Assembly: GCA_012522955.1 (NCBI GenBank) | Contig: JAAYJK010000006.1 | Location: forward strand, 1-40,206 | DNA from: Syntrophomonadaceae bacterium | Lineage (GTDB): Bacteria > Bacillota > Syntrophomonadia > Syntrophomonadales > Syntrophomonadaceae | DNA: 40,206 nt | Reading direction: 5' to 3' | Part shown: positions 17,556 to 25,284 of the stretch, one piece after another | Layout of the letters: every line of letters begins with the position of its first letter | How positions within the stretch are numbered: position 1 is the stretch's first letter | The notes under the pieces: model-generated | The model's database searches: none | Told to the model about the DNA's origin: nothing | The model's input: the letters and a program-made list of their open reading frames with translations, nothing else | Made by a program: the position numbers and the translations under genes

Positions 17556-18248
17556 TTAGGCCATAATGTACCCGAGCATTTCCAATTTCTTTAGCTCTTG
17601 CTCAATACGATTAATGGCAAAGGGTCTTCCATGGGCTGGGAAAATGTTAACCGCCCCCTCTTTACAGAGTTTATACCAGCTATAGTAAATCTGCTCCGGC
17701 CTCTCGGCAAAAGGTGGATAAAAGGATAATCCGGTCCAATTAACAGCTAGATCACCTACCAGGGCATTGCCATTGGCCAGCAACACGCTAAGGGAACCGG
17801 TGGTATGGCCTGGTGTAGGCAATACTTTTCCCTCTATACCGTATTCCTCCAGGCCATACTCAGCTTGTACTATTATTTCGCTATCAACGCTTGGGTAGGC
17901 CAGCAGCGGGGCAGCTTTCTGGCCTATGCTGCTTAACATCCGGCCCAGCGGGTTAGTACCAGGGGGAATTACAATTTCCCCCTCCCGCATTATTCTGGCT
18001 TCCAGCGGGTGGGCCAATACCTGACAATCACAAAGCTTTTTTATTTCGGCCAAACTGCCGATATGGTCATAATGGGCGTGAGTCACTATTATTAATTTTA
18101 TGCTCTTCGGTAATATGCCCATTTCTTTTAACAATCTCTGAAAGCACTTCACCTTTCTTAAACTGCCGGCATCAACCATTATATATCCCTGCTCAGCTCT
18201 GAGCAGGTAACAATTGGTTATTCCCAGCTTTAATCTTAAAAGATCCAT
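17556..18248 (-). CDS. Metallo-beta-lactamase-fold hydrolase
   Basis: The 230-residue protein has the metal-binding THAHYDHIG motif (about 56-64), a further ligand in PTPGHTTGS (about 150), the bridging Asp in VGDLAV and a terminal His in FPAHGRPF. This is the glyoxalase II-like branch of the superfamily; the substrate cannot be told from sequence. There is no signal peptide. ATG 18248 is chosen, with GAGG a few bases upstream. It begins 19 bases after the stop of the selenoprotein candidate and is surely cotranscribed. A thiol- or sulfur-related role alongside that redox protein is only a guess. Confidence 0.88.
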   Translation of the reverse strand: MDLLRLKLGITNCYLLRAEQGYIMVDAGSLRKVKCFQRLLKEMGILPKSIKLIIVTHAHYDHIGSLAEIKKLCDCQVLAHPLEARIMREGEIVIPPGTNPLGRMLSSIGQKAAPLLAYPSVDSEIIVQAEYGLEEYGIEGKVLPTPGHTTGSLSVLLANGNALVGDLAVNWTGLSFYPPFAERPEQIYYSWYKLCKEGAVNIFPAHGRPFAINRIEQELKKLEMLGYIMA

Positions 18249-18266
18249 CACCGGCCTCTATATCAG

Positions 18267-18629
18267 CTATTGCTGGACCAACAACTGCTGGTATTTTTCT
18301 TCTTTAAAGCCTGACAGCAGTATTGTTCCATCAGTTAAAAGGGGACGGATTAAAATCCGTGGATCTTCTTGAATCAGAGCGGCTGCCTCTTCGGGAAGCA
18401 GGCTGGATAAATCCGGCTGGAGCTTCTTAAGACTCTGGCTCTTGCGATTGAGCATTTCCTTTACCTCAAGGCCGGCCAATCCGGCTAAGTACTGAAGTTC
18501 CTCCAAGTTGGGGGGAGATTTTAAAAGGTCAATCTCATCAAATTCAAGATGGTTTTGCATAAGCCACGCTTTTGCCTTTTTACAGGTACTTCAGGTTTTT
18601 ACGCAATAAAACTTAAACTTATTTTCCAT
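18267..18629 (-). CDS. ArsC/Spx-family protein with in-frame TGA, probable selenoprotein
   Basis: From ATG 18629, with AAGGAGG 5 bases upstream, the frame runs through one TGA (18593-18591, codon 13) to a TAG at 18267, giving 120 residues. The start reads FYCVKT-U-STCKKAKAWL. ArsC-like thioredoxin-fold proteins have IY(G)xxxC-S/T-TCRKAKxWL here, so the TGA replaces exactly the first Cys of C-x-x-C. The remainder (FDEIDLLKSPPNLEEL, ILIRPLL, GFKEEKYQQL) is the normal C-terminal half of the family. A SECIS-like hairpin follows the TGA. An ATG at 18560 would give only 97 residues, with no ribosome-binding site and no active site. Substrate unknown; arsenate or another redox partner is possible. 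The alternative is a nonsense pseudogene. Confidence 0.82.
18557..18575 (-). promoter_or_regulatory. Predicted bacterial SECIS hairpin
   Basis: Minus strand GCAAAAGC-GTG-GCTTATGC: seven base pairs with one A-A mismatch, loop GTG. The stem starts 15 bases after the TGA and the loop G lies 24 bases after it. Bacterial SECIS elements are coding-region hairpins with G early in the apical loop, roughly 16-37 bases past the UGA, so size, loop and spacing fit. The hairpin was folded by eye. Confidence 0.65.
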
Positions 18630-18955
18630 ATTATCCTCCTTATTCAACTTGTGGCACTAAAAAACATCTTATTGTAACATCTCCTACCATGTATTCATAT
18701 CTTACATTATGGGTATTCTATAAGTATAGCTTTGTGAATAGCTTACCAGATTACTCTGGTAGCTTTCATATAACAAGGGGGGAGCAGAGAATTTTGCTCT
18801 TCCCTTGATTTATTTTATCCTGAAGAAAGCTATGGTAAAACTATTGAATCTTGATTCCCCTGGGAAAATTAATATATCCCGAGTTTGGATGATAAATATA
18901 TTCCAATCGAGGCTGCCCTCCAACCAATGTTTTTTGCCCAAAATGGATACAAATA
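18630..18955. other. Non-coding gap upstream of the selenoprotein operon
   Basis: There is no convincing gene in this 326-base stretch. It contains a hairpin at 18740-18764 (TACCAGA/TCTGGTA around a 4-base loop, extended by AGC/GCT) and a weaker GAGCA/TGCTC hairpin at 18782-18799. A possible minus-strand promoter is TTGTTA (18777-18772), 17 bases, TAATCT (18754-18749), overlapping the first hairpin. It should hold the 5' leader of the selenoprotein-hydrolase operon. Confidence 0.4.
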
Positions 18956-18984: not shown

Positions 18985-19980
18985 CTAGCTGAGGAGGCAG
19001 GGTAGGTCTTGACCGCAGGCTTTACACCTCCCCTGCTCTAATCCTACTATTTGAGTATAGTAGCCGTCCCTCTTAACCAGAAGTCCTTCACACTCGGGGC
19101 AGTAGCTGTTGTTATCGGGTCCGGGCATATTGCCCACGAAAACATGTTTCAGGTATTCCTGAGCCACCTGCCTGGCTTGTTCCAGGGTACTGGCAGGGGT
19201 GGCTTCCTCCTTGAACTTGTAAGCCGGATGATAGCGGGAGAGATGCAGGGGGATAAAAGGGTTTATCCCGGCCAGCCATTTGCTCATCTCCCTGATTTCC
19301 TCCATATTATCGTTCTCATGGGGTATAATCAAGCTGGTAATCTCCACATGACAACGGCAAGCAGCCTGTTCTACCGTGTTCATTACTGGTTTGAGGCTAC
19401 CCCGGCACAGTTTCTTATAGAAGTCTTCATTAAAGGCTTTTACATCAATATTGATGGCATCAAGGTAGGGTAGTAAATGCTGCAGTGGTTTATCCTCTAT
19501 ATAGCCATTGCTTACCAGTACTAATTTAAGATCCTTTTCTTTAATGAGCCTGGCAGTATCTAAAATATATTCATACCATATTATGGGTTCATTATAGGTA
19601 AAAGCTAGTCCAATGGATTCGTATTGGCGGCTCTTCCAGGCCAAATCCGCCAACTGCTGGGGCTCTATTAACTGAGTATCCGGTTGGCCATGAACTAAAA
19701 TATGGTTCTGACAAAAGCGGCAAGATAGATTGCAACCGAAGGTACCCGCTGACAATATGGTTTTACCCGGATAGAAATGATACAAGGGTTTTTTTTCTAT
19801 GGGGTCCAGGGCCAGGGAAGCCACTTTAGAATAGTTAGCTGCTATCAGCTGACCATTTTTATTGATCCGGCTGCGGCACAAACCGTGCTGACCAGCCTTG
19901 ATCAGACAATGATGAGGACATAACCCGCATTTTACCAGGCCTTCGTCCAGGCTTTCATAAAACTGGGCTTCTTTGACCAT
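18985..19980 (-). CDS. AmmeMemoRadiSam system radical SAM enzyme
   Basis: This 331-residue protein of the PflA-like (COG1180) group has the [4Fe-4S]-binding C-x3-C-x2-C in FGCNLSCRFCQNH (Cys 83/87/90). A cysteine cluster comes before it (CGLCPHHC, then C35) and a zinc-ribbon-like tail with two C-x2-C pairs (YCPEC and CKACG) after it. It is not a standard pyruvate formate-lyase activase: no glycyl radical enzyme is nearby. Its upstream neighbour, a fused MEMO-AMMECR1 protein, marks the AmmeMemoRadiSam system, whose chemistry is still unclear. Conserved co-occurrence suggests the three domains modify a common target. Confidence 0.9.
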   Translation of the reverse strand: MVKEAQFYESLDEGLVKCGLCPHHCLIKAGQHGLCRSRINKNGQLIAANYSKVASLALDPIEKKPLYHFYPGKTILSAGTFGCNLSCRFCQNHILVHGQPDTQLIEPQQLADLAWKSRQYESIGLAFTYNEPIIWYEYILDTARLIKEKDLKLVLVSNGYIEDKPLQHLLPYLDAINIDVKAFNEDFYKKLCRGSLKPVMNTVEQAACRCHVEITSLIIPHENDNMEEIREMSKWLAGINPFIPLHLSRYHPAYKFKEEATPASTLEQARQVAQEYLKHVFVGNMPGPDNNSYCPECEGLLVKRDGYYTQIVGLEQGRCKACGQDLPCLLS

Positions 19981-24714: not shown

Positions 24715-25284
24715 TTAGCTGCCGACCAGTATTATTCCGGCCACAATTATTACCAGTGATAACAGAAAAGATAGTCTACTGGCATCATGTTAAGGGATAT
24801 AGGCCATTCAAATAGGCAGGCTTAATGGCCAGCAGTCCTACTATCCCACTTTTTGCTTTTGCCCAGCGGACAAAAGATAAGGAGGATATTTAGCAAGATC
24901 CTCCATGGATAATAGTTTAAGAGCATTATCAACTCTAACTCGTATTTCATTGGCTGGCAAATTTAAGTTTTCAGAACCAAATGCCACATCTTCTTCTACG
25001 GTGCCGGATATGAATTGTTTTTCCGCTTCTGGAAACAAGAGCTTTACTTTCTGCTTAATCAAAGGTCGGTACTGGGGTAGATGGCTATCGATGCCATCAA
25101 CCACCACCCGGCCTGCGTCAGGCAGATAAAGGCCATTTAAAAGTTTGGCCAGGGTGCTCTTGCCGGAGCCGTTAGGTCCGATAATGGCTATAATTCCATG
25201 TTCAGCAATTTCCAGGTTTATGTCCTTAAGTATACTGGGACCGTTAGGACTATAGGAAAAGCCAAGCTTCTCCGCCTTTATCAT
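24715..25284 (-). pseudogene. Remnant of the ecfA1-ecfA2-ecfT module
   Basis: From ATG 25284 an ECF ATPase runs 147 codons: Walker A GPNGSGKST (36-44), a deviant Q-loop (LFPEAEKQ), and the signature as LSAGQKQK. It then stops (TAG 24843-24841) before Walker B. Two frames over, the sequence continues as IVGLLAIKPAYL (24844-24809), exactly what should follow LSAGQKQKVA, so a one-base deletion is likely. Next, 24786-24715 encodes DASRLSFLLSLVIIVAGII, then LVGS and a stop: a hydrophobic tail like the EcfT C-terminus. The rest of ecfA1, all of ecfA2 and most of ecfT are gone. No ribosome-binding site precedes the ATG. Position between rplQ and truA is that of the intact module in Firmicutes. Confidence 0.88.

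Follow-up and report, generated by a model that had tools for sequence, protein, structure and literature searches.

The question raised by this locus is what a single in-frame TGA means near the start of a small ArsC-like gene. The gene lies in a 40,206-nucleotide stretch of Syntrophomonadaceae DNA (hereafter the window), on the minus strand, and is read from 18629 to 18267. The earlier note on this DNA had given these coordinates correctly, leaving the strand unstated. As it had also reported, the visible open reading frame is truncated at its N-terminus, being the 97-residue C-terminal part of a 120-residue frame, and our reading of the sequence agrees that the longer frame opens at an ATG preceded by AAGGAGG. 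The sole interruption of this frame is the TGA at codon 13, the site of the family's first redox cysteine (Y-C-V-K-T-U-S-T-C). That placement was upheld both by alignment with the C-x-x-C of Spx and by the relatives described below. The read-through product has 120 residues and begins MENKFKFYCVKTUSTCKKAKAWLMQNHLEFDE...; without read-through, an internal ATG opens the 97-residue C-terminal frame, which is without the whole active site. No other ArsC-family gene was found in the same genome, the selenoprotein gene being the only one. The features of the gene, all on the minus strand, are the following.

18267-18629, minus strand: gene for a putative Spx/ArsC-like selenoprotein of 120 amino acids with Sec13 (PF03960, TIGR01617), from translation with TGA read as U, Pfam and TIGR01617 scores and an AlphaFold model
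18635-18641, minus strand: ribosome-binding site AAGGAGG, 5 nt 5' of the ATG, from sequence reading
18629-18627, minus strand: start codon ATG of the selenoprotein, from sequence reading
18603-18605, minus strand: Cys9, an additional cysteine four residues N-terminal of Sec, invariant in the alignment of 19 Sec members
18591-18593, minus strand: UGA codon 13, putative Sec, with TGA in 41/41 clade members and aligned with the first Cys of the Spx C-x-x-C
18582-18584, minus strand: Cys16, putative resolving cysteine of U-x-x-C, invariant in the alignment of 19 Sec members
18557-18575, minus strand: SECIS-like hairpin GCAAAAGC-GUG-GCUUAUGC with its loop at 18567-18565, from folding; its position and a mostly G-first loop are conserved in the clade
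18269-18267, minus strand: stop codon TAG of the selenoprotein, from sequence reading

Comparative sequence evidence indicates that UGA-13 is almost certainly decoded as selenocysteine. We put the probability that the gene product is a Sec-decoded Spx/ArsC-like redox protein at roughly 0.9, a figure that concerns its identity and not its catalytic role.

The distribution of the TGA among relatives was investigated, since the gene could instead be a pseudogene whose TGA arose by nonsense mutation or sequencing error, or translation could be limited to the 97-residue frame. The internal ATG would allow the latter, and the window's hairpin taken alone is unremarkable, as described below. A match was found in 27 of the 61 related genomes in a close sample, and the best 19 of these 27 matches (the window's own included) had one stop each, always TGA and always at the identical codon. 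Class and phylum searches brought the set to 41 genes, each from a different genome and together spanning at least 13 families, with TGA at that codon in every one. Among these 41 members, drawn from the close, class and phylum searches, we found neither a Cys form nor any further internal stop. In the alignment of 19 Sec members, conservation at the protein level extended to either side of the TGA, including the 12 codons before it. Third codon positions were the most changed in most close pairs of Sec genes, and purine-rich sites equivalent to AAGGAGG were present in most relatives. The same TGA in 41 genes from independent assemblies rules out a pseudogene, and the earlier note was right that a random nonsense mutation was improbable here. 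The conserved codons ahead of the TGA also argue against production of the 97-residue form alone, as does the missing active site of that form, and we give either version a negligible chance.

A second way of explaining the codon, TGA reassigned as a sense codon (for example for Trp), was prompted by the absence of TGA stops in 31 hand-listed genes of the window. Against this, 46 of the 234 longer ORFs in 319 kb of the genome (a mechanical ORF list) stop at TGA, and release factor 2 is intact; the genome therefore uses the standard code, and reassignment was ruled out with next to no remaining probability.

The source genome (2.53 Mb, 99.9% complete) was searched for the Sec machinery, as had been suggested, and selA, selB, selC (tRNA-Sec, anticodon UCA) and selD were found together on contig C57, all above curated cut-offs. 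The selD gene has an in-frame TGA of its own (C57:6186-7109, L044) and thus encodes a Sec-containing selenophosphate synthetase, a protein also listed for Syntrophomonas wolfei (PMC1794560). In the phylum sample, SelB scored above its cut-off in 17 of 17 clade genomes and in all 35 genomes that carried a TGA form of any kind, compared with 263 of 398 overall (hypergeometric p = 7e-4 and 2e-7, respectively, with genomes treated as independent). In the close sample, one draft genome (G013, 92% complete) contained the gene with no SelB above cut-off. Among the named genomes scanned, the sole clade member was L038, from a Syntrophomonadaceae MAG.

Bacterial selenocysteine insertion is guided by a hairpin 3' of the codon, and the earlier note had described one here with a G in its loop. 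Such a hairpin is present, with its loop 23 nt past the TGA and G as the first loop base, but it is weak. Its stem consists of 4 bp, an A·A mismatch and 3 bp, its energy is −4.6 kcal/mol in isolation and −6.0 kcal/mol in a 56-nt context, and when folded on its own it does not outperform dinucleotide shuffles (z = +0.84). The published bacterial SECIS model requires that the minimum free energy not exceed −7.5 kcal/mol (PMC13188914). The window hairpin satisfies the rules of this model for loop (GUG), stem (4 bp upper) and spacing (23 nt) but misses the energy, which 27 of 54 tested Sec genes reach. Because −7.5 kcal/mol is the threshold of a prediction model and not a functional one, missing it leaves the wider class of bacterial selenoproteins open to the window gene. 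The window's copy is among the weaker ones of the clade; the closest relative (L011) has a perfect 8 bp hairpin at −10.4 kcal/mol.

Across the clade, the hairpin gave a clearer signal. In 19 Sec genes, hairpins scored higher than synonymous-codon shuffles (combined p about 3e-9, a value inflated by relatedness), and no such excess was found in eight Cys homologues (p = 0.2). Triloop hairpins with at least 5 contiguous bp had their loop at +24 in 18 genes (for example GCGAAAGC-GUG-GCUUUCGC) and at +21 in 13 (for example GGCCAA-GGC-UUGGCU), with few elsewhere. The arms co-vary, as in the pairs GCAAAAGC/GCUUUUGC, GCGAAAGC/GCUUUCGC and CACAAGC/GCUUGUG. The selD gene of the same genome has a hairpin with the loop GGC at +21 and served as an internal control. 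Given the TGA at the same codon in all 41 members, and a set of hairpins that beats synonymous-codon shuffles, we consider the window hairpin to be above chance. The hairpin is conserved across the clade, although in two registers and with a weak copy in the window. The earlier note had named missing Sec machinery, close relatives with a sense codon or further stops, and an unconserved SECIS fold as grounds for rejecting its reading; all three were checked, none was borne out, and the selenoprotein reading is supported. The register shifts by exactly one codon, to a loop at +21 or +24, between relatives in which the UGA is fixed (L010-L028, L058-L085).

The family of the protein was assigned with profile models and a predicted structure. 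The read-through protein scored 60 bits with Pfam ArsC (PF03960, cut-off 24) and 91.7 bits with TIGR01617, the model for Spx/MgsR RNA polymerase-binding regulatory proteins (cut-off 75). It missed the Spx equivalog models (67 bits vs. 123, 60.9 vs. 152 and 50.5 vs. 159) and the equivalog of true ArsC, TIGR00014 (26.3 bits vs. 106). NCBI's model for known ArsC-like selenoproteins, NF041106 (ArsC_rel_Se_1), was also missed, with 23.3 bits where the cut-off is 85. L080, L085 and L082, three further clade members that were individually scored, reached 22–39 bits, so this model does not cover the clade. Over 117 residues, the AlphaFold model (pLDDT 92.7) matched the ArsC-related structure 3gkx with Z 17.6 and rmsd 2.2, and Spx (3gfk) with Z 17.4 and rmsd 1.8. 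By sequence profile, the nearest solved protein was Spx at 103.7 bits, with the nearest ArsC-type entries lower. The ArsC/Spx fold that had been named from the letters was therefore confirmed, with the refinement that TIGR01617, profile and fold place the protein nearer to Spx than to true ArsC.

Invariant positions in the alignment of 19 Sec members include Cys9, Sec13, Thr15, Cys16, Lys18, Ala19, Trp22, Leu23, Pro90, Arg91 and Arg95. The clade motif is C-x3-U-x2-C, with a third invariant cysteine beside U-x-x-C; this Cys9 has no counterpart in Spx, and FxCYPKC-type Cys homologues have it. Where the Spx switch has C-x-x-C and R-P-I, the Sec proteins have U-x-x-C and R-P-L/I/V. The equivalent of Spx Gly52 is Glu55 in the window protein and T, E, D, Q or others in the clade, with Gly in a single one of 19 members. 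The positions of Spx V71 and M74 hold mostly hydrophobic residues, that of L76 is mostly acidic, and the protein ends short of the Spx C-terminal tail.

These features suggest a mechanism. SelB and Sec-tRNA would insert selenocysteine at UGA-13, guided by the hairpin just 3' of the codon. Judging from fold and motif, Sec13, which opens the first helix in a thioredoxin-like fold, would as a selenolate attack a substrate in oxidised form, whether disulfide, sulfenate or peroxide. Cys16 would then resolve the adduct as an Se-S bond and thioredoxin would reduce that bond, with Arg95-Pro96 (the R-P motif of Spx) predicted to tune the reactivity of Sec13. Cys9 may perhaps act as a backup or third redox residue. 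A thioredoxin-coupled selenol oxidoreductase is the most likely form of the protein, and a catalytic oxidoreductase role is the better bet once Sec decoding is granted. This role is favoured because the Gly52 site is variable, the Spx tail is missing and a true ArsC is unlikely (26 bits vs. 106).

Detoxification of arsenate by a selenium arsenate reductase was considered as well, since the protein shares the fold and Pfam family of these enzymes and retains the equivalents of two arsenate-site arginines, K/R63 and R95. The third arginine is seemingly replaced by Gly107 in an alignment made by eye on ArsC numbering. Sec forms annotated as arsenate reductases do exist (PMC2398784). However, the score lies far below the TIGR00014 cut-off, and no arsenic gene was recognised beside the selenoprotein gene in the window. 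We consider this function improbable, also when Sec decoding is taken as given.

The selenoprotein could also be a redox-sensing regulator, in which an oxidised Sec13-Cys16 Se-S bond would alter contact with RNA polymerase or another partner, in the manner of the C-x-x-C in Spx. Spx is the best solved match by sequence, TIGR01617 was passed, the R-P motif is common to both proteins, and the V71 and M74 equivalents are mostly hydrophobic. Against a regulator stand the failed Spx equivalogs, the mostly acidic L76 equivalent, the absent C-terminal tail and the variable Gly52 site. To our knowledge, almost every Sec residue characterised so far acts in catalysis, which also weighs against it. Gly52 is required in Spx for contact with the alpha-CTD of RNA polymerase (PMC4180751), yet OseR of C. 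difficile, a YusI-type Spx-like protein without Gly52, controls genes of the O2 response in this obligate anaerobe (PMC11481553). Overall, we regard a regulator as the main rival of the enzyme, possible but doubtful, and only slightly less doubtful if Sec decoding is granted. A broader version, in which the clade and the Sec-containing proteins of the YusI/OseR branch would be a selenium redox sensor of strict anaerobes with a U-x-x-C switch controlling transcription, seems rather unlikely. If it were true, it would be a Spx-type switch running on selenium; we are aware of no characterised transcription regulator in bacteria that senses through a selenocysteine.

The gene neighbourhood was compared among the Sec loci, with the two genes flanking the selenoprotein gene in the window as follows.

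17556-18251, minus strand: metallo-beta-lactamase-fold hydrolase, an ORF named from sequence reading, 15 nt past the selenoprotein stop
18985-19980, minus strand: AmrS-type radical SAM gene, upstream, an ORF named from sequence reading

The metallo-beta-lactamase-fold gene of the window is probably in the same operon as the selenoprotein gene. In about ten Sec loci, a homologue of it directly follows the selenoprotein gene, and an AmrS homologue lies upstream in 18. These kept neighbours point to a stably retained gene. They gave no clear clue to the substrate. Both are conserved within the family; outside it, other neighbours are found, and these point to no substrate either. Elsewhere in the window, a 147-aa ECF-transporter ATP-binding ORF (24841-25284, minus strand) ends soon after the ABC signature region and looks truncated, unless an assembly break or frameshift is responsible. 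Another locus (L037, near 1513-1668 of G050:C12) contains a short ORF resembling glutaredoxin, with an in-frame TGA close to its redox site, which is probably a further small selenoprotein.

A tree was built from the 41 clade members, 21 Cys sequences and 13 other Sec sequences. The 41 members formed a single group (support 92/51), and 94% of bootstrap trees gave them one origin. By score, Spx/MgsR were the nearest Cys proteins, and the other Cys and Sec forms were mostly YusI-like (F-x-C-Y-P-K-C). A second, more distant set of TGA genes (SecB, L099-L111; 13 loci in other Bacillota) was also mostly YusI-like, with U-x-x-C, U-x-x-V, U-x-x-A and U-x-x-S motifs, and was scattered among Cys forms with eight changes on the tree. 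Its U-x-x-V forms resemble the C-x-x-V reported for OseR, the O2-responsive regulator of C. difficile.

Selenium-containing members of this superfamily have been described before, and the earlier note understated them in calling Sec forms of ArsC-like proteins rare. U-x-x-C and U-x-x-S forms were reported in 2005–2008 (PMC1088965, PMC1794560, PMC2398784), and more turn up across Bacillota. The 2008 Global Ocean Sampling selenoproteome included an "Arsenate reductase 2" (cd03032, U-x-x-C; PMC2398784), which was later listed as "arsenate reductase-like protein" with the model NF041106 (PMC13188914). It shares with the window protein the Pfam family, Sec at the first redox Cys, U-x-x-C and a bacterial SECIS, and the clade is set apart from it by its score on the model (23.3 bits vs. 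85 for the window), not by comparison with the 2008 sequences. We take cd03032 to be the Spx-type ArsC subfamily. Our literature searches found no paper on an Spx selenoprotein. What appears new from the sequences, ArsC-like U-x-x-C selenoproteins having been known since 2008, is a distinct Spx-like clade that is Sec only and has a third invariant cysteine. Read with translation table 11, its genes become truncated ORFs without an active site, and with NF041106 scores far too low as well, the clade has probably been missed in many genomes of syntrophic and other anaerobic Bacillota.

Among characterised systems, the R773-type ArsC and the Sargasso Sea U-x-x-S selenoprotein belong to the same superfamily, and the latter has Sec at the same catalytic position; the window protein differs in its U-x-x-C and in scoring far below the TIGR00014 cut-off. 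Spx and MgsR, redox regulators of Bacillus, are the closest solved proteins, with the same fold, the R-P motif and C-x-x-C where the clade has U-x-x-C, whereas the clade has Sec for Cys, the extra Cys9, no Gly52, a shorter C-terminus and scores below the equivalog cut-offs. This raises the question of whether Spx-type redox switches can use selenium. YusI/OseR-type proteins, found in anaerobic Clostridia, likewise have an Spx-like fold without Gly52 (PMC11481553), although they apparently form a separate branch (the root is weak, 52/65, and OseR itself is absent from the tree). The YusI-like part of the tree mixes Sec with Cys forms, whereas the window clade is Sec only. The clade offers a clean setting in which to ask why one branch of the fold never swaps Sec for Cys when another interchanges the two freely.
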